Below, in pieces: positions 2,520-17,446 of a stretch of 17,446 nt of DNA. Origin of the DNA: a bacterium (lineage in GTDB: Bacteria > CSSED10-310 > JAJRTK01). The DNA lies in the NCBI GenBank assembly GCA_024278345.1, contig JAJRTK010000107.1, positions 1-17,446 on the forward strand, written 5' to 3'. The position numbers and the translations under genes were made by a program. Within the stretch, counting starts at the first letter, position 1. Every line of letters begins with the position of its first letter. The notes under the pieces were generated by a model. The model worked only from the letters and a program-made list of their open reading frames with translations. It ran no database searches and was not told where the DNA came from.

Positions 2520-4661
2520 TCATTGGCCCAGCCTCTTTAGAATCGCCCTGGCTTCCTGATTAGAGGGGTAGAGCTGAAGCTCCAGAGCCGCTTCCCGCTT
2601 CGCCTCCGGAAGCTGGTTCCTCAACAGGTAGGCCTTGGCCCGGAGAAGATGAAGCTTGGGATAGCGCGGGTTTCCTCGGGCCAGGTAGTCCAAATAATGG
2701 TGAGCCCCCGCCGCGGTCCCCTTCCGAATCTGGAGCTTGGCCATGTTGACGATGCAGTCCGGGCTGTTGAATAACTGAAGAGCGCGGCCCATGAAGAGCT
2801 CCGCCTGCCCCAGATCGCCGAGGTTCATCCAGGCGATGCCATTGCAACAGTAAAGAGCCGCCCGGGACGTCACATTTTCGTCCACGGCGCTTTTCATGCC
2901 CTTGGAGTAGATCTCGATGGCTTCCTTCGGGCGTCCCTGGGTGTCCCGGATGACACCGAGGTTGATGTAGCCCCGAAGGCTACCGGGTGCCTTGGCTACG
3001 GCATCGCTCCAGAACGTTTCCGCGGAGCCCCAAACTTCGGCCCTAATCTTGAACCCTGCGGAGTACAGCGCCAGAATGAGAATGATGACGGCTCCAAGAA
3101 GGCGCCTCCGAATCCAGGATTCCTCGGCCTCGCCGTCCCCGGTTTTCGGGTGGGGCCTTCCGTTTCCAGCTTTTCCGTCCCCGGTTTCCGGGTGGGGCCG
3201 GTCGCTTCCGGCTTTCCCAGCGGCCCAATGGAGAAGGGGCAGAAGCAGAAAAGCCGAGGGCAGGTAGCTCCGGTGAACGAAGGCAATCTCCAGCGGATAG
3301 ATCGTGGACTCCAGAAGATGGTTGCCGAAGAACCAGAGGATTGCCAGAGAGATTAAGGGCTGCCTCTTCCGGAGGGCGATGCCTCCGGCGATCAGGAGCA
3401 GGATGATCGTGGCGGCCGCCGCCGTGACCGGAGGCTGCCAAAGCGACCGGGAAATAGAGTAGTGGAGGGTGAAAGAGAGTCTGCTTGGCAGGGGAACGAA
3501 AAAAGAGGTCAGATAATCAAGAAGAACCCGGCCTTCCGTCAGGAGACGCTCCCATGCCGTAAAGGAGCGACCGGCCCCGGGGGAGATGATCGCTTCCACG
3601 AGAGCCGACGGATGGTAGCCCAGGAGAAGTAGACCTCCCGGGAGAATCCCGGCGGTGGCCAAAGCCGTCAAAAGAAGCCGCCTCCAGCTCCAGGCCTTGC
3701 TCTTTCCCCGTCGGGGAAACAACCAGTGGAGAAGACCCAGGCCCAACGGAATCAAGAGCGCCGTCTCCTTGCAAAGAAGGCTCGCGCCAGCGGAAAGCAG
3801 GACGGCAGCCCACCACCCCACGGCCGCCCGGCCCGTCCGGATCCGGGCCTCGAAATAAAGGAGACACGCCAAGAAATAGAAGGTCGCCGAAAGGAGGGCC
3901 ATCCGCTGGATCACGTAGAAGACGGCGTCGGCATGAAACGGGTTCAGGCCCCAGAGAAGAGCGGCGGCAAGAGGAACGAACCAGCTTTTTTGCCTCCGGC
4001 CCACACAGGCGGGTATCCACGTAAGGCGGGACGGAGAACCACGTGGGTCCAGGGAGCGAGCTCCCTGGTGGGTGCAGGGCAAAGCCCTGCCAGGGGACCG
4101 GGGCCGGAGTCCCCGGACGACCGCCGAGCCGAGCGAGGCGCAAAGGAGTGTCCAACTGTCCCGCCTTGGGTGGATACCCACACAGGCCAGGATCTGCCGG
4201 ATCAACAAGGCAAGCAGAAAGATGTTCAGGGTGTGGATCCCGACGTTTACCAAGCGGGATGCACGCGGGGAGAGCCCGAAGATTGCGGCTTCTACCAGAA
4301 AACTGAGACTGGGAAGGAAACGCCGCGCACCGGGAAGGGGGTTCGCCGTGACCAGATCCCTGATCGTTTGCCAGGAAAGATCCGGAGACCGAAAGTAGGG
4401 GACGGATCGAAAGTGTCCAAGGGAGTCCAGATAGAAAGGGCCACTGGTCGCGGACCAGGAACAGGCGGCCAGAAGCCCGAACAGGGTCAGCGCTAGAGTG
4501 GCCCCCAAAAAAGCTCTGGTGCGACGGGTCGTGGGTTTCACCGGTGGGCTCCCGGAATGTTGGCCGTTTTGTGTCGATGAGTCGGGAGCCGCGGCTCTCC
4601 CGCTTTGAGTAGACACCCCAAAAACGGCTAGCCACCCTGTCCCTAGGATGGTGTTTGCCAC
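2520..4661 (-). CDS. TMTC-like membrane protein with C-terminal TPRs (repeat insertion inside)
   Basis: The 713-residue product resembles the TMTC/GT-C-like proteins: an N-terminal membrane helix followed by FYLDS (residues 76-80), a multi-helix core with VIQRMALLSATFYFLACLLYF, the signature FVHRSYLP, and TPR repeats over the last ~150 residues (INLGVIRDTQGRPKEAIEIY onward). TMTC proteins are GT-C O-mannosyltransferases in eukaryotes; the bacterial substrate is unknown. The paralogue at 4704-6290 has FYLDD at the first-loop motif where this copy has FYLDS, which may weaken catalysis. A mobile repeat at 4011-4177 adds 59 codons in frame. A loop at 3133-3216 holds a 14-residue tandem duplication. 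The GTG at 4661 has a weak ribosome site; GTG 4541 (residue 41) has GGAG 7 nt upstream and may be the true start. The gene may still be functional, but this is uncertain. Confidence 0.8.
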   Translation of the reverse strand: MANTILGTGWLAVFGVSTQSGRAAAPDSSTQNGQHSGSPPVKPTTRRTRAFLGATLALTLFGLLAACSWSATSGPFYLDSLGHFRSVPYFRSPDLSWQTIRDLVTANPLPGARRFLPSLSFLVEAAIFGLSPRASRLVNVGIHTLNIFLLALLIRQILACVGIHPRRDSWTLLCASLGSAVVRGLRPRSPGRALPCTHQGARSLDPRGSPSRLTWIPACVGRRQKSWFVPLAAALLWGLNPFHADAVFYVIQRMALLSATFYFLACLLYFEARIRTGRAAVGWWAAVLLSAGASLLCKETALLIPLGLGLLHWLFPRRGKSKAWSWRRLLLTALATAGILPGGLLLLGYHPSALVEAIISPGAGRSFTAWERLLTEGRVLLDYLTSFFVPLPSRLSFTLHYSISRSLWQPPVTAAAATIILLLIAGGIALRKRQPLISLAILWFFGNHLLESTIYPLEIAFVHRSYLPSAFLLLPLLHWAAGKAGSDRPHPETGDGKAGNGRPHPKTGDGEAEESWIRRRLLGAVIILILALYSAGFKIRAEVWGSAETFWSDAVAKAPGSLRGYINLGVIRDTQGRPKEAIEIYSKGMKSAVDENVTSRAALYCCNGIAWMNLGDLGQAELFMGRALQLFNSPDCIVNMAKLQIRKGTAAGAHHYLDYLARGNPRYPKLHLLRAKAYLLRNQLPEAKREAALELQLYPSNQEARAILKRLGQ
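3133..3216 (-). repeat. 42-bp tandem duplication inside TMTC-like gene
   Basis: Two adjacent 42-bp units, both beginning CCGTCCCCGGTTT on the plus strand (3133-3174 and 3175-3216), encode the 14-residue units AGSDRPHPETGDGK and AGNGRPHPKTGDGE. They lie in a charged loop before the last membrane helix and the TPR region. The period is a multiple of three, so the frame is kept. The units differ at several bases, so the duplication is not brand new. Confidence 0.75.
4001..4187. mobile_element. MITE-like repeat A3 inserted in-frame, with flanking direct repeats
   Basis: The 22-bp inverted ends at 4011-4032 and 4158-4179 (GGGTATCCAC... and its complement) match at 20 of 22 positions. Between them lie the family core hairpin (from 4043) and the GCAGGGC/GCCCTGC hairpin. 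The direct repeat CCACACAGGC flanks the element at 4001-4010 and 4178-4187, overlapping the last bases of the right end; this looks like a target-site duplication. The copies are 177 bp apart, exactly 59 codons, and no stop is introduced on the coding (minus) strand. The host protein therefore shows ACVG twice, before and after the insert. With one copy of the direct repeat and the element removed, the loop returns to a length like that of the paralogue. The element carries no gene, so it is non-autonomous. Confidence 0.85.
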
Positions 4662-4703: not shown

Positions 4704-6290
4704 CTAGGGTGGCGGACTGGATGGCTCCGGGAGCGAAATGCCTAGCCTGGCAGCGGTCTCCAGGGCTCTCTTTCGCACTTGTGGGTCGGGATTGTCAAAG
4801 GCGCGACGAACGAACTTCTTATAAGTGCGGAGCGCTTCGGGTAAGCGCCCCAAACGCTCCAAGGCAATGCCAGCGTTGTAGATCGCCTCCACAAAGCGAG
4901 GCTCGATCTCCATCGCCCGCCGGAAGTGAGCCAACGCCCTTTCGTCATCGCCTTCCAGCAGGTAGCAGTTTCCAAGATTGGTCTGCGCCCTCACGGTGTG
5001 CGGCGACTTTTCGACGACATCGAGCCAGAGGGCTTTGTTGGACCTCCAGACCCTGTTCCGAAGAGAGGTTGCGCTTCCAAGGCAGAGCAGAATCACCCCG
5101 AAAACAAGAAGCGCCCGCCACCGAAGCCTGGAAAGAAGCGGAACCCACAGAAACGCCAGCATCGCCAAGGGGAGGTAGTTTCGGTGCTCGAACACCAACT
5201 CCAGGTTGATGGGGCCAGACTCCAAGAGATGGAGCAGGGCGTAGGACGCCAGGGGGAACCCCACCTGGGGATGCTGGAAGAGCAATAAGCTGGCAATGGC
5301 CAGAAAAATGACGATCCCCGCCATGGCGGCAAGTGTGGACGGCGGGGAGAGAACTCCCCGCGACGGCTCTATGGCGTGGGCAATGTTGAGGCGGCTTGGA
5401 GCGGGCCAGACAACAAGCGTTGCGTAGAACGCCTGGACCCGGGCTTCCGTCAAGACCCGTTCATAGCCGCTGAAGTCGCGATTCGGGAATCGCTCCGTCC
5501 ATCCCACGATCTGCGATGAGCCCACGCGTTGGAGCGCCGTGGCTCCAAGAAACAAGAGTGTCCCCAGGAGGATCGCAAAGAGAACTCGATTGCGTCGGCT
5601 CCGCCGGACTCGGCGCCACAGCCCGGCCAGATCCGTCCTGTGAAAGGCAAGCTCGTAGAGGAAAAGAATGCCGGGCATGGCCACGGCGATCTCCTTGCTG
5701 CCCAAAGCCAGAAACCAAGACAGAAATCCCACTGCGAACCATCGCCTCGATGCCCTGGAGCGGAGCGCCTGCTGCCTGCCGCAAATGTAGCTTCCCAGGG
5801 CCAGGAGCGAAAAGAGGGCCGCAAGGCTCGTCATCCTCTGGACGATGTAGGAAACCGCCTGCGTCGCCAGCGGATGGAGAAGAAAGAACCCCGCCGCAAC
5901 CACTGAAACCACCGCGAGCTTCCCACCATCGGCCGGCCGAGGATGAGCCTCTCGCGCCAAAAGAAACGCCACCCAGGCAACGGCCGCGCCCACTAGAAGG
6001 TGGATCAGGAGATTCGTCCGGTGATAGGCGTGGGGATCGAGCCCCGCGCGCAAGTAGTCAAGGCCGAAGGTCAGGTTTGCTACAAAGCGCGTGGAGAGCC
6101 GTCCGTTCATCAAACCGCGGAGATTGTCCAGGCTCAGGCTGCTCCATTGAAGGGCTGGAACATCGACGATGTTCGGGTAGTCGTCCAGATAGAATTCACC
6201 CTCCATGGCCGGCAAGTAAGCGCCCACAACCGCCAGGCTGAGCAGGAGGAAAAGTCCCGCCGCTGGCCAAGTTTTTGCCGGAATCTCCAT
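4704..6290 (-). CDS. TMTC-like membrane protein with C-terminal TPRs
   Basis: The product has about 528 residues from ATG 6290. After a first membrane helix comes FYLDDYPNI, the first-loop Asp-Asp motif typical of GT-C-like TMTC proteins. Many membrane helices follow, with the family signatures YIVQRMTSLAALFSLLALG and LELVFEHRNYLP. The end of the protein has two TPRs (TNLGNCYLLEGDDERALAHF and IYNAGIALERLGRLPEALRT). It is a likely lipid-linked sugar transferase or a protein of envelope assembly; its acceptor is unknown. It is a paralogue of the next gene downstream (ending 2520), which lies 42 bp away on the same strand, so they probably form an operon. The open frame extends to a GTG at 6374 without a ribosome site. 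ATG 6290 is preferred because membrane helix 1 follows directly, though its AGGA lies only 3 nt upstream. Confidence 0.85.
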   Translation of the reverse strand: MEIPAKTWPAAGLFLLLSLAVVGAYLPAMEGEFYLDDYPNIVDVPALQWSSLSLDNLRGLMNGRLSTRFVANLTFGLDYLRAGLDPHAYHRTNLLIHLLVGAAVAWVAFLLAREAHPRPADGGKLAVVSVVAAGFFLLHPLATQAVSYIVQRMTSLAALFSLLALGSYICGRQQALRSRASRRWFAVGFLSWFLALGSKEIAVAMPGILFLYELAFHRTDLAGLWRRVRRSRRNRVLFAILLGTLLFLGATALQRVGSSQIVGWTERFPNRDFSGYERVLTEARVQAFYATLVVWPAPSRLNIAHAIEPSRGVLSPPSTLAAMAGIVIFLAIASLLLFQHPQVGFPLASYALLHLLESGPINLELVFEHRNYLPLAMLAFLWVPLLSRLRWRALLVFGVILLCLGSATSLRNRVWRSNKALWLDVVEKSPHTVRAQTNLGNCYLLEGDDERALAHFRRAMEIEPRFVEAIYNAGIALERLGRLPEALRTYKKFVRRAFDNPDPQVRKRALETAARLGISLPEPSSPPP

Positions 6291-6387
6291 GGATCCTGAG
6301 CGATCTTCCTCATGGATCACGGTTTCGCCATTCCAAAGGATTTTCCGTTCCAGGGCGCAACTACCAAGCTCCACGTGTTTTCAGGGT

Positions 6388-13118: not shown

Positions 13119-13140
13119 CGTTGTTTGGAGGTTGCAAGTG

Positions 13141-13713
13141 ATGACTGGAGAACGCGTTTCTTTTCGCATGTTGTGGAGGAGCCTAGCTCTTTTTGCCGGG
13201 TTGGCTTTGCTCTCAGCCCCTGTTGCAAATGCTGGTGATGCAGAGTACGTCGGAGTCAAAAAGTGCAAGATGTGTCACATCAAGCAGTACAAGTCTTGGG
13301 CTGAAACCCCCATGGCAAAGGCAATGGATTCCCTGAAGCCTGGTGAAAGTGCCGACGCCAAGACGAAGGCCGGCCTGGATCCCAAGAAGGACTACACAAC
13401 AGACGAGAAATGTCTGGCATGCCATTCCACGGGTTACGGCAAGGCCGGTGGTTATTCCGGTCCCGATGATGTCGCGTTGGCTGGCGTGAGCTGTGAAGCC
13501 TGTCACGGTCCTGGAAGCCTTTATAAGAAGACCATGAAGAATAAGGCCTACAAGATGGATGACGTCATGGCGGCCGGTCTTGTTCATCCCAACGAAGAGG
13601 TGTGCAAGACTTGCCATAATGCAGACAACCCGACGGCGGGCGAGGATTATTCCTTCAAGTTCGACAAGGACAAGGATATCCACAAGCATATCCCGTTGAA
13701 ACACGAGCATTAA
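13141..13713 (+). CDS. Periplasmic tetrahaem cytochrome c, c554-like
   Basis: The product has about 190 residues. A signal peptide ends APVANA (cleavage near residue 31). Four CXXCH haem sites follow at C42, C91, C118 and C145. The phrases YVGVKKCKMCHIKQYKSW and GVSCEACHGPGSLY are typical of the cytochrome c554-like family, which carries electrons in the periplasm. ATG 13141 was chosen because the signal peptide follows; GGAGG lies 9 nt upstream. The in-frame GTG 13138 (6 nt spacing) is possible. It is the first gene of a four-gene plus-strand set, but an 87-bp gap with a stem (13727-13752) separates it from the next gene, so it may be made in different amounts. Confidence 0.93.
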   Translation: MTGERVSFRMLWRSLALFAGLALLSAPVANAGDAEYVGVKKCKMCHIKQYKSWAETPMAKAMDSLKPGESADAKTKAGLDPKKDYTTDEKCLACHSTGYGKAGGYSGPDDVALAGVSCEACHGPGSLYKKTMKNKAYKMDDVMAAGLVHPNEEVCKTCHNADNPTAGEDYSFKFDKDKDIHKHIPLKHEH

Positions 13714-13726
13714 ACCTGTTCTAACA

Positions 13727-13752
13727 GCGGCGGCGCGCATCAGCGTCGCCGC
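13727..13752 (+). promoter_or_regulatory. Stem-loop between cytochrome gene and the NrfD-complex genes
   Basis: GCGGCGGCGC (13727-13736) pairs with GCGTCGCCGC (13743-13752) at 9 of 10 positions with a 6-nt loop. It lies 13 nt after the cytochrome stop. There is no T-run, so it is more likely a 3'-end-protecting or processing stem, or a partial attenuator, than a true terminator. Confidence 0.45.
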
Positions 13753-13787
13753 ACCGGTTCGCCGTTCACCACCCAAAACAATCTTGC

Positions 13788-13803
13788 AGGAGGGGTTACG
13801 ATT
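13788..13803 (+). promoter_or_regulatory. Strong ribosome site in front of an ATT codon
   Basis: AGGAGGGG (13788-13795) is the best Shine-Dalgarno sequence in this operon. The codon 7 nt after AGGAGG is ATT (13801-13803), which opens the frame of the anchored cytochrome. There is no ATG, GTG or TTG in that frame before GTG 13870. The only other near-cognate choice is ACG at 13798. Confidence 0.6.
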
Positions 13804-14544
13804 AGCAGTCAGGACCATCGCCAAACAACTGGCGGCGACGGCGCTGGCCAGGAGCTGGAAAGCCCTTTTGTGGAGTCCACCTCGCTCGTTGTGCTGTTGC
13901 TCGTTTTTGCCGCCATCGGTTTCGGCGTTCTTGTTTACGCTGTGACCAAAGGTAGCCACTACAAACAGGGGGAAACTCTTCGCGTTGCCCATGCCCCGAA
14001 GGACTACCCAGAGATCGAATGGAATGTCGAGCTTCTTCCAGGGCTGGAAAAGCCCGCGAAGGAAGGTGAAGCGGAGACCTTTTCCGTACCGTCGCCCCCG
14101 TTTTCAGAGGACGTTTTTCCCTGCTCGGACTGCCACGAGGATATGGATCCTAACCCAGAACGCCGAGTCCTGGAAATGGCCCACGAGGAGATCGTGCTGG
14201 ACCATGGGCCTAAGAGCCGGTGGTGTTTTGACTGCCACAATCTAGAGGATCGGGACAAGCTTCGCCTCGTGAGTGGAAGCCTGGTGGATTTCAAAGAATC
14301 CTACAAACTTTGCGGCCAATGTCATGGTACGATCTACCGGGATTGGCGAGAGGGCATTCACGGGCGGCGCCGTGGGTATTGGAATGGACATAAGAGCTAT
14401 CTACTCTGCGCCCATTGCCACAACCCTCACAAACCCAGGTTCAAACCACTCAAGCCATTGGCGCCTCCTATTCGGCCAAGTTCCCAGCACTTCACCGAAC
14501 CGTCGGCCGAGCAAACGTCAAAAAGTGAAGGGGGCCACTCATGA
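13801..14544 (+). CDS. Membrane-anchored tetrahaem cytochrome c subunit
   Basis: From ATT 13801 the product has about 247 residues: a short hydrophilic N-terminus (SSQDHRQTTGGDG...), one membrane anchor (about 27-49, SLVVLLLVFAAIGFGVLVYAV) and a periplasmic domain with four CXXCH sites (CSDCH, CFDCH, CGQCH, CAHCH). The phrases FPCSDCHEDM, RWCFDCHN, LCGQCHG...RDWREGIHGRR...WNGHKSYLLC and CHNPHKPRFKPL belong to a family that sits beside ferredoxin and NrfD genes. It is likely the cytochrome subunit of that complex, similar in layout to Geobacter Cbc4 (CbcSTU). GTG 13870 would be the start by usual rules, but it begins right at the helix and has only weak GGAA upstream. The end overlaps the next gene by 4 bp (ATGA). 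Confidence 0.85.
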   Translation: MSSQDHRQTTGGDGAGQELESPFVESTSLVVLLLVFAAIGFGVLVYAVTKGSHYKQGETLRVAHAPKDYPEIEWNVELLPGLEKPAKEGEAETFSVPSPPFSEDVFPCSDCHEDMDPNPERRVLEMAHEEIVLDHGPKSRWCFDCHNLEDRDKLRLVSGSLVDFKESYKLCGQCHGTIYRDWREGIHGRRRGYWNGHKSYLLCAHCHNPHKPRFKPLKPLAPPIRPSSQHFTEPSAEQTSKSEGGHS

Positions 14545-15506
14545 GCCAAGATTATGCCGGGAAAGCACCGGCACCTCGAGTCCCGTGTGATGTCGCCCAC
14601 AAGGGAGCGGCTGACGGGGGATTGAACCGTCGAGAGTTCCTGGCCGGCGCAGGCTTAACCGCCATGTCGGCCATCGCGACGACGGTCGCCGGTGCGGCGC
14701 CAGGTTTCATAGAAAGCATGCTAAGGCGCCACTTCAAAGAGCTTTCTCCCGACGAGGTCCAAGAGCGCCTACGGCTTCTTGAGGAAGAGTACTCCTCCCG
14801 CTTCGGAAAAAAAGTGACCGTGGCCGCCACGCCTCCCATGGAGAACGTGCTGTTCGGTTACGCTCTCGACCTCTCTCGCTGTATTGGCTGCCGCCGCTGT
14901 GTTTATGCTTGTGTCCACGAGAACAACCAGTCCAGGGATCCGCAAATCCACTGGATCAGAGTCCTGGAGATGGCCAAGGAACGCGGTATCGATCTCGAGG
15001 AGGCAGACCCTTACTACGACCACGACACGGTGCCTCAAGAAGATTCCTTCTATATGCCCGTTGCTTGCCAGCAGTGCCGAAACCCTCCCTGCACCCGGGT
15101 CTGCCCTGTTCAGGCTACGTGGCAGGAACCCGACGGAATCGTGGTCATCGATTACGACTGGTGTATCGGTTGCCGTTACTGCATGGCCGCTTGCCCCTAT
15201 GGCGCTCGCCATTTCAACTGGGGCAACCCCCAGATCCCGGCGGCAGGACTGAACACTGACATGCACGTTCTTGGGAACCGTCCCCGGGTTGCCGGCGTCG
15301 TCGAAAAGTGTACCTTCTGTATCCAGAGGGTTCGCAAGGGGCGCTATCCCGCCTGTGTCGAAATCTGCCCGGTTGGCGCGCGCAAGTTTGGCAATCTGCT
15401 GGACGAAAACAGCGAGCTCCGCTACCTGATGCGCGAAAAGAGGGTCTTTGTACTGAAGGAAGACCTCAATACGCAACCGAAATTCTACTACTTCTACGCG
15501 ACGTAA
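14541..15506 (+). CDS. Tat-exported ferredoxin subunit with four [4Fe-4S] clusters
   Basis: The 321-residue product belongs to the DmsB/NrfC/HybA/TtrB type. A Tat motif NRREFL (29-34) followed by a hydrophobic stretch predicts export of the folded protein. Sixteen cysteines form four cluster sites: C114-C117-C120-C124, C176-C179-C184-C188, C208-C211-C214-C218 and C257-C260-C272-C276. It should wire electrons between the NrfD membrane subunit and the tetrahaem cytochrome. No molybdopterin subunit is encoded beside it, so this is not a standard DMSO, polysulfide or tetrathionate reductase. It overlaps the cytochrome gene by 4 bp and is followed 4 nt later by the NrfD gene, showing tight coupling. 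Confidence 0.95.
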   Translation: MSQDYAGKAPAPRVPCDVAHKGAADGGLNRREFLAGAGLTAMSAIATTVAGAAPGFIESMLRRHFKELSPDEVQERLRLLEEEYSSRFGKKVTVAATPPMENVLFGYALDLSRCIGCRRCVYACVHENNQSRDPQIHWIRVLEMAKERGIDLEEADPYYDHDTVPQEDSFYMPVACQQCRNPPCTRVCPVQATWQEPDGIVVIDYDWCIGCRYCMAACPYGARHFNWGNPQIPAAGLNTDMHVLGNRPRVAGVVEKCTFCIQRVRKGRYPACVEICPVGARKFGNLLDENSELRYLMREKRVFVLKEDLNTQPKFYYFYAT

Positions 15507-15510
15507 GGCC

Positions 15511-16728
15511 ATGAGAGGACCAATCAACTTCATCATCGGATCCGTTCGCCTCGTTTTGCGTGGCGGGAAGGCTTACTACGCTTGGATGGCGTTTCTTCTG
15601 GCCCTTATTCTCTGGGGCGGCATCGCCTATGTTGATCAGCTCCGCCACGGACTGATCATGACGGGGATGAGGGACCAGGTGTCATGGGCGTTTTACATCG
15701 GCAACTTCACTTTTCTGGTGGGAGTTGCGGCGGCCGCGGTGCTCCTTGTCATTCCGGCCTACGTCTATAGCTGGAAGCCCATCAAGGAGGTCGCCATCTT
15801 CGGCGAGCTGTTGGCCATCAGCGCTATTGTCATGTGCTTGCTGTTCGTGACGGTCGATATCGGTCGCCCAGAGCGGTTTTGGCATCTGTTGCCACTGGTC
15901 GGGGCGCTGAACGTTCCTGCTTCTCTGCTCGCTTGGGATGTCTTAGTGCTCAACGGTTACCTCGTTCTCAACGTGGTGATCGTGGTCTATCTGCTCTACA
16001 CGGCTTTCAATAAGCAGCCGTACAACAAAAACTTCGTTGTTCCGCTCATTCTGCTTTCGATTCCAGCCGCCATCAGCATTCATACCGTGACGGCATTCGT
16101 CTACAATGGCCTTGCGGCGCGGCCCTTCTGGAATGCCTCGATTCTGGCGCCTCGCTTTATCGCGTCGGCCTTCTGCTCGGGGCCGGCCATCCTGCTCATC
16201 CTTTTCCAGATCTTGCAGCGGACAACATCGATTCGGTTGCAGGATGAAGCCATCTGGAAGATCGCCGAACTCATGGCCTACGCCATGTTCTTCAACCTGT
16301 TCCTGTTTGGCGCCGAAATCTTCAAAGAATACTATTCCAACACCTATCACCTCTCTCACACCCGATATCTCTACAGCGGTTTGCATGGCCATACGGCCCT
16401 TGTTCCCTATGCGTGGGCCTCTTTCTTCTGTAGCGTCGTGGCGTTCTTGCTCTTCCTGATCCCCAGTACCCGAAAGAACATCGTCACCTTGAACTTGGGA
16501 TGTTTGCTCATTTATTCGGGGGTCTATATCGAAAAAGGGCTGGCACTCGTCATTCCCGGAATGACGCCGGATGTCCTGGGAGAGATCTACGAGTACACTC
16601 CGACTTTGACGGAGATACGGATCGGTGCTGCGATCTTCTCTATAGGTTTTCTAATCTTTACAGTGCTTTGCAAGATTGCAATTCCGATTATCCAAGGGGA
16701 GTATAGCGTGGACTCGCTCAAAAGCTGA
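15511..16728 (+). CDS. NrfD/PsrC-family quinone-interacting membrane subunit
   Basis: The 405-residue product is strongly hydrophobic with about ten membrane helices. Family phrases include VTVDIGRPERFWH (about 114-125), AISIHTVTAFVYNGLAARPFWN and APRFIASAFCSGPAILL, like the longer HmeC/DsrP/Cbc-type NrfD proteins. NrfD proteins bind menaquinone or ubiquinone in the membrane and exchange electrons with a ferredoxin partner. ATG 15511 lies 4 nt after the ferredoxin stop without a strong ribosome site, so it likely relies on coupling. The gene is last of the operon; only repeats follow. No intrinsic terminator with a T-run was seen after the stop. Confidence 0.95.
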   Translation: MRGPINFIIGSVRLVLRGGKAYYAWMAFLLALILWGGIAYVDQLRHGLIMTGMRDQVSWAFYIGNFTFLVGVAAAAVLLVIPAYVYSWKPIKEVAIFGELLAISAIVMCLLFVTVDIGRPERFWHLLPLVGALNVPASLLAWDVLVLNGYLVLNVVIVVYLLYTAFNKQPYNKNFVVPLILLSIPAAISIHTVTAFVYNGLAARPFWNASILAPRFIASAFCSGPAILLILFQILQRTTSIRLQDEAIWKIAELMAYAMFFNLFLFGAEIFKEYYSNTYHLSHTRYLYSGLHGHTALVPYAWASFFCSVVAFLLFLIPSTRKNIVTLNLGCLLIYSGVYIEKGLALVIPGMTPDVLGEIYEYTPTLTEIRIGAAIFSIGFLIFTVLCKIAIPIIQGEYSVDSLKS

Positions 16729-16734
16729 GTGAGC

Positions 16735-17100
16735 TCGGGCTGGATCCCGGCGGCGGACGGGGGGAACTCGCGCCCAGGCGCGGGTCGTGCCGCCGGGAGC
16801 GGAACGGGGTATCCACTTAAGCCCGGACAGAACAGAAAAAAAGGAAAACGTGGTGCCGAGCGAAGCGAGACGCCGAGCATAAGCGAGGCCCACCGTACAA
16901 AAATGTGGGTCCAGGGAGCTGGCTCCCTGGTGGGTGCAGGGCAAAGCCCTGCCAGGGGGCGGGGGACAGAGAGTCCCCAGACGACCGCCGAGTAACGCGA
17001 GGCGTTACCCGCCAAGCGGAGCGAGGCGTTGCCCAGACGATTGGATTTCCACAATCCTTGAAGTGTCCCGCCTTGCGTGGATGGCCGCGGAACGCAACCA
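16735..17100 (-). repeat. Dispersed repeat family B, copy B4, split by element A4
   Basis: Read on the minus strand, GGTTGCGTTCCGCTCCCGGCGG is reached only if 16807-17094 is removed. The outer pieces are 16735-16806 and 17087-17100. They contain the family signature and a GC-rich inverted repeat as in B1-B3. GCGGAACG is present on both sides of the insert. Confidence 0.65.
16799..17094. mobile_element. MITE-like repeat A4 with 8-bp flanking direct repeats
   Basis: The ends GGGTATCCAC (16807) and GTGGATGGCC (to 17086) are imperfect inverted repeats (17 of 23 positions over the longer match) and resemble the ends of A3. Inside are the core hairpin (16911-16930), the GCAGGGC/GCCCTGC hairpin (from 16936) and GTAACGC/GCGTTAC (16992-17008). 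The direct repeat GCGGAACG flanks the element at 16799-16806 and 17087-17094. The target is a family B repeat. No open frame of note lies inside. Confidence 0.8.
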
Positions 17101-17307: not shown

Positions 17308-17446
17308 GGCCTCGGTCATGGTACCGGCCACCCGAAAAAAGCGCGCAGCGCACAAAGATGTGGGTCCAGGGAGCTGGCTCCCTGGCGTGGGTCTGGGAGC
17401 GGCGCTCCCAGCGGAGGTCCGGAGGCGGAGCCTCCGCCGGGTTCCA
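17308..17446. repeat. Hairpin-rich repeat, copy A5 (truncated at window end)
   Basis: It begins with a 24-bp inverted-repeat arm (17308-17331), the complement of the right arm of A1 (164-187). From 17322 to the end it matches 1-125 with a single difference (G at 17427, A at 106). That difference falls in the 3-nt loop of the third hairpin, leaving all stems intact. Confidence 0.85.

Follow-up and report, generated by a model that had tools for sequence, protein, structure and literature searches.

Palindromic repeats that code for protein are best known from Rickettsia, and their contribution to proteins has been described as unexplored (PMC10969869). The RPEs are palindromic repeats of about 150 bp, with several families per genome, and are found between genes as well as in frame inside unrelated genes (PMC10969869). 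Nearly half of the R. conorii RPEs sit in ORFs, where they are able to modify the product, and RPEs are described as encoding a conserved peptide (PMC10969869). The RU-1/2/3 repeats of enterobacteria are ERIC-type MITEs with intragenic ORFs (Delihas, 2007; PMC2759123). Delihas found no such repeats within conserved domains of superfamily proteins, the fusions being at C-terminal regions (PMC2759123). The QMITE2 elements of Coxiella, 150-190 bp long, form strong hairpins and have direct repeats of 7-11 bp and inverted ends (TIRs) of 23-29 bp. In a few cases they are inserted in frame in hypothetical ORFs, while named genes are overlapped mainly at their 3' ends (PMC5896051; PMC10969869). In-frame insertion of MITEs in bacteria is already known; what is new in the present case is the scale, the lineage, the independence of frame and the position within domains.

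An F1 element in a TMTC-like gene

The window, 17,446 nucleotides, is the whole of one contig (C26) in a draft genome of 6.06 Mb, which comprises 550 contigs and is 88% complete. It contains on the minus strand a gene (2520-4661) for a TMTC-like multispanning membrane protein of 713 amino acids with C-terminal TPRs; it is called TMTC-like from its sequence layout, Pfam recognising only the TPRs. The reading frame is open through a complete, hairpin-packed F1 element of 169 bp (4011-4179). The TIRs of this element, GGGTATCCACGTAAGGCGGGAC (4011-4032, plus strand) and GGGTATCCACCCAAGGCGGGAC (4158-4179, minus strand), are 22 bp long and match at 20 of the 22 positions, as the initial annotation had it. 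Between them lie three hairpins, CCAGGGAGCGAGCTCCCTGG (4049-4068), a variant form of which is also found in F2 elements, GCAGGGCAAAGCCCTGC (4074-4090) and CCGGGGCCGGAGTCCCCGG (4098-4116), and the folded element is much more stable than its shuffles (z -4.7 and -5.5). A direct repeat of 10 bp was said to bracket the element, and the 10-mer CCACACAGGC is indeed present at 4001-4010 and 4178-4187. The duplication proper is, however, the perfect 8-mer ACACAGGC, with its left copy at 4003-4010 and its right copy at 4180-4187. A 10-bp duplication was rejected because the CC preceding the right copy is the end of the element itself and other copies have duplications of 8, sometimes 9, bp. The spacing of 177 bp between the direct repeats, and with it the gain of exactly 59 codons, stands. 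The claim that the element is open on the coding strand is right in that the ORF runs through it, but openness is not confined to one direction, five of the six frames being open.

The element has been inserted with a target-site duplication and with preservation of the reading frame. The frame has been kept because the element plus one duplication amounts to 177 bp and the element is nearly stop-free. Codon usage in the gene is coding-like on either side of the element, and when the element and one duplication are taken out, an ORF of 654 amino acids with ACVG at the joint is obtained. Nothing corresponding to the 59 residues is present in the paralogue next door (4704-6374, minus strand), where alignment confirms that the insert is missing, or in the homologues from other genomes, the nearest among those searched belonging to the same phylum only. 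Homologues that align across the insertion site have 9-16 residues there against 59 in the host protein, and one of them (G055:C6) matches residues 33-158 and 218-476 of the query as adjacent pieces 12 bp apart. Close homologues carrying the same segment without similarity to the repeat had been named in advance as evidence against an insertion; the homologues examined are without the segment. The insertion lies between ALLIRQILACVG and RRQKSWFVPLAAALLW, in a short loop joining two membrane segments, and the positive charges suggest that this loop is cytoplasmic. The segment itself would be translated as part of the protein. The intact TIR pair and the perfect duplication indicate that the copy is probably young. 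Elsewhere in the gene, at 3133-3216, a 42-bp direct duplication (83% identical) that is unrelated to the element adds 14 residues in frame (AGSDRPHPETGDGK / AGNGRPHPKTGDGE).

This element fits the description of a MITE (PMC10969869). It is 169 bp long with 22-bp TIRs, where MITEs are below 500 bp with TIRs of about 4-30 bp, it is too short to encode a transposase, it is flanked by a direct repeat, and it belongs to a family with many dispersed copies. With at most 3 mismatches, the F1 TIR is matched 445 times in the 6.06-Mb genome, 224 times forward and 221 times in reverse, while the reversed pattern used as a control has no match. A second family, F2, with the ends GGCCTCGGTCATGGTACCGGCCAC, accounts for 233 TIR matches (115 and 118). 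It likewise shows 8/9-bp duplications, and the first internal hairpin, part of the hairpin core, is common to both families. Paired members of the families are mostly 130-360 bp. A perfect duplication of 8/9 bp is present in 32 of the 63 paired copies having both flanks, against a mean of 0.65 and a maximum of 4 when flanks were mismatched between elements. The reading as a MITE is thus upheld by the TIRs, the duplications, the hundreds of dispersed matches and the lack of coding capacity of its own.

Repeat DNA makes up 1.5% of 20 contigs chosen irrespective of repeats, and in a sample of 1.53 Mb most copies appear intergenic. Outside this genome, 59 others, including seven from the same phylum, gave no match to the F1 TIR (at most 2 mismatches), and 20 of these 59 gave none to the full element. 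The element was also sought in phages and plasmids, where none was found, and contigs of named relatives searched by protein and by TIR gave no usable match. Further copies in the window are a second, apparently intergenic F1 element (16807-17086) with a perfect 8-bp duplication GCGGAACG, a degenerate F1 copy between genes (2180-2358; core 2180-2279, eroded right end 2337-2358), and two F2 elements truncated by the contig start (1-187; TIR 164-187) and the contig end (17308-17446; TIR 17308-17331). The two F2 copies have 125 bp in common, and the contig is probably not a circle but one interrupted by repeats. The window also contains, at 13132-16728, a row of genes for a multihaem cytochrome-like protein, a 4Fe-4S ferredoxin and an NrfD-type membrane protein, which probably make up a respiratory complex.

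Insertions in other genes

The 1.53 Mb surveyed for genes, roughly one quarter of the genome, were enriched for repeat-bearing contigs, and seven genes in them carry elements in frame and open. The TMTC gene with its F1 element is therefore not a lone case, whereas a lone pseudogene would, according to the initial annotation, have been damaging; six further genes behave in the same way. A DEAD-helicase/AAA fusion (L151) has gained 177 bp and shows the perfect duplication TTTCCAGG. A fusion of fatty-acyl reductase, AMP-ligase, carrier and acyltransferase (L131) contains two elements, an exosortase-like gene (L205) F1 and F2 elements, and an ApbE gene (L093) two elements located after the likely signal peptide and before the ApbE domain. 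The remaining two are a CHASE2-cyclase gene (L115) and a gene without assigned identity (L210).

In the L131 fusion one element lies inside the AMP-binding domain and the second further on. The 384-position profile of this domain is stretched over 488 residues, and relative to a solved adenylation domain the query has a gap of about 145 residues where the chain of the structure has 34. The repeats resemble RU-1/2/3 in being MITE-like and in having open frames that join those of host genes, but differ from them in that one copy interrupts an AMP-binding domain and another separates membrane segments. They have size, direct repeats, TIRs, strong hairpins and some in-frame insertions in common with QMITE2, whereas interior insertions in identifiable enzymes set them apart. 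TIRs can no longer be recognised in L131 and L093, which suggests that these insertions are older. The hairpin units also expand into short 24- or 27-bp tandem arrays, which encode repeated peptides in frame, among them RRAKRGENP and GVPAERSA (L093 17236-17471; L131 2852-3076; L109 5336-5592).

Four genes are broken by elements: an ISL3 transposase gene (L114), a gene of unknown kind (L125), a DUF2887 gene (L212) and a probable CHAT-domain gene named from its sequence (L098). An SNF2-like gene (L160) with an ambiguous frame relation and a methyltransferase gene (L139) with the insertion at its start were excluded from the tally, and L109 and L147 were rejected for want of coding evidence on both sides or for being upstream of a gene. 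These repeats invade insertion sequences too, as in L195 (335-535), where an ISL3-type transposase gene is interrupted by an F2 element flanked by the 9-bp duplication GTTCAAGCG.

An insertion in the TMTC gene that is recent, neutral or harmful, and in frame by luck would leave a gene that may be non-functional and a protein that is never usefully made. The probable youth of the copy fits such an event, and about 15% of random insertions would preserve an open frame. Against this expectation about seven open genes stand beside four broken ones (7 of 11 or 12; P about 0.0007 for 7/12), in a tally that was made partly by hand on about a dozen genes and in which decayed broken genes are harder to see. 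The excess of open genes is unlikely to be due to chance, and this supports, though it does not prove, a filter acting on the insertions. Luck is also argued against by the open frame and coding-like codon usage on both sides of the element, by six more genes of the same kind, one with its insert within a conserved enzyme domain, and by inserts whose eroded TIRs make them probably old. Chance alone is therefore regarded as a somewhat unlikely account of the TMTC insertion.

Insert lengths are not enriched for multiples of three in the family overall (22 of the 65 inserts, 34%). The in-frame excess among the copies in genes looks like survival.

Open frames and hairpins

The 65 paired elements have on average 2.68 of six frames open (45%), and the excess is seen in both families (2.69 and 2.62). 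Dinucleotide shuffles give 1.38 (SD 0.11; 23%), reversed, uncomplemented copies, in which composition and hairpins are kept, 1.37, and non-coding-like DNA from the same genome, of lower GC, 1.04; as the copies are related, fewer independent points lie behind this excess than the numbers suggest. Reversal leaves the hairpins in place but halves the number of open frames, so the scarcity of stops cannot be put down to the hairpins alone.

The elements might still act mainly as RNA or DNA structures, for instance as attenuators, RNase III sites or protein-binding hairpins, with the open frame as a by-product. The hairpins are strong, and the internal ones differ between copies by gain and loss of whole palindromes. 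Paired changes preserve them: 22 cells are altered on both sides, where shuffles give 5.9, and slid controls are exceeded as well; the majority of copies moreover appear to be intergenic. Template-switch repair of palindromes can, however, also give paired changes, and the halved openness of the reversed copies argues against a by-product. An Rfam search of the window gave no family match, so a structural role would imply an undescribed RNA. Such a role as the main one is considered unlikely.

With respect to translation, the initial annotation had proposed testing copies inside genes for an open frame in one direction, and such a preference was not borne out. Seven in-frame copies of the core, from five genes, include two frames in sense and two in antisense orientation. 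A single conserved peptide is not seen, as at least four of the six frames are used, on both strands. F1 and F2 are similar to the RPEs in that they are short palindromic repeats of several families, located both in intergenic DNA and, in frame, within unrelated genes. They differ in having clear TIRs, 8/9-bp duplications, hundreds of TIR matches and a GC-rich sequence, as well as in the use of at least four frames on both strands in place of one conserved peptide, and since that last feature fails they are not filed as RPEs. The suggested likeness to RPEs holds as one of behaviour, in the repeated in-frame use inside unrelated protein genes, and is not put forward as one of descent or sequence kinship.

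Mobilisation and fate of the insertions

A search with five DDE models and Y1_Tnp found no transposase with GGGTATCCACGYAAGGCGGGAC ends in the genome, which is 88% complete with contigs broken by repeats, and among the paired copies there was no TIR-bounded transposase. Matches to DDE_Tnp_1, IS1595 and ISL3 are fragmentary, those of the ISKra4 type are weak, decayed pieces, and none of them is bounded by F1/F2 TIRs; the IS256 model had no match. The IS1595 copies end differently (GGCTCTATATGCGATCC), and the ISL3 copy is itself split by an F2 element. Two IS1595-type copies (L192 and L193) have the end GGCTCTATATGCGATCCAGGGAT in common, which differs from those of F1 and F2. When 1.25 Mb was compared with itself for long repeats, no multi-copy insertion sequence emerged. 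The source element may be missing from the short-read assembly, since repeats of such copy number break assemblies.

The repeats are palindromic, of high copy number and mostly between genes, as are extragenic palindromes of the REP/RAYT type, which a Y1 tyrosine transposase mobilises, but the single Y1_Tnp match is weak and below the curated cut-off, and long TIRs and duplications of 8/9 bp do not fit Y1 chemistry, TnpA-REP leaving no target-site duplication; this origin is very improbable. It is equally hard to believe that the assembler joined the element into the gene, for although 75 of 162 contig ends in a TIR-enriched sample lie in these repeats and the window starts and ends within F2 copies, the flanks form one gene and, unlike those of a chimera, rejoin cleanly at the duplicated 8-mer, a duplication of the kind found in half of all paired copies.

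An F1 MITE has very likely inserted into the TMTC-like gene with the frame kept, its sequence would have become protein, and the same filter would operate genome-wide. A DDE-type transposase acting in trans would be the mobiliser, making 8-bp staggered cuts and inserting the non-autonomous F1 element with duplication of ACACAGGC. The protein would be made with a 59-residue loop rich in Arg and Pro, probably tolerated in the short loop between helices. F1 and F2 would insert widely, with most hits in genes being lost. Survivors in useful genes would be those that preserve the frame and contain no stop, most of them located in loops or linkers, and in-frame copies would persist because the host gene can still be used. 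The scarcity of stop codons in the families would increase the proportion of insertions that the host survives.

It may tentatively be proposed, as something less than probable, that F1 and F2 have been selected for translatability in most frames, and that an estimated two to three dozen proteins carry inserts, some of which are working parts. In this GC-rich genome from another lineage, the intact TIRs, the duplications and the apparent spread of ages make the insertions countable. Comparison with empty sites together with the reversed-sequence control allows a test between adaptation of such repeats to genes and mere survival in them. If the proposal is true, repeats that are translatable in most frames would be able to spread through coding DNA with little damage.
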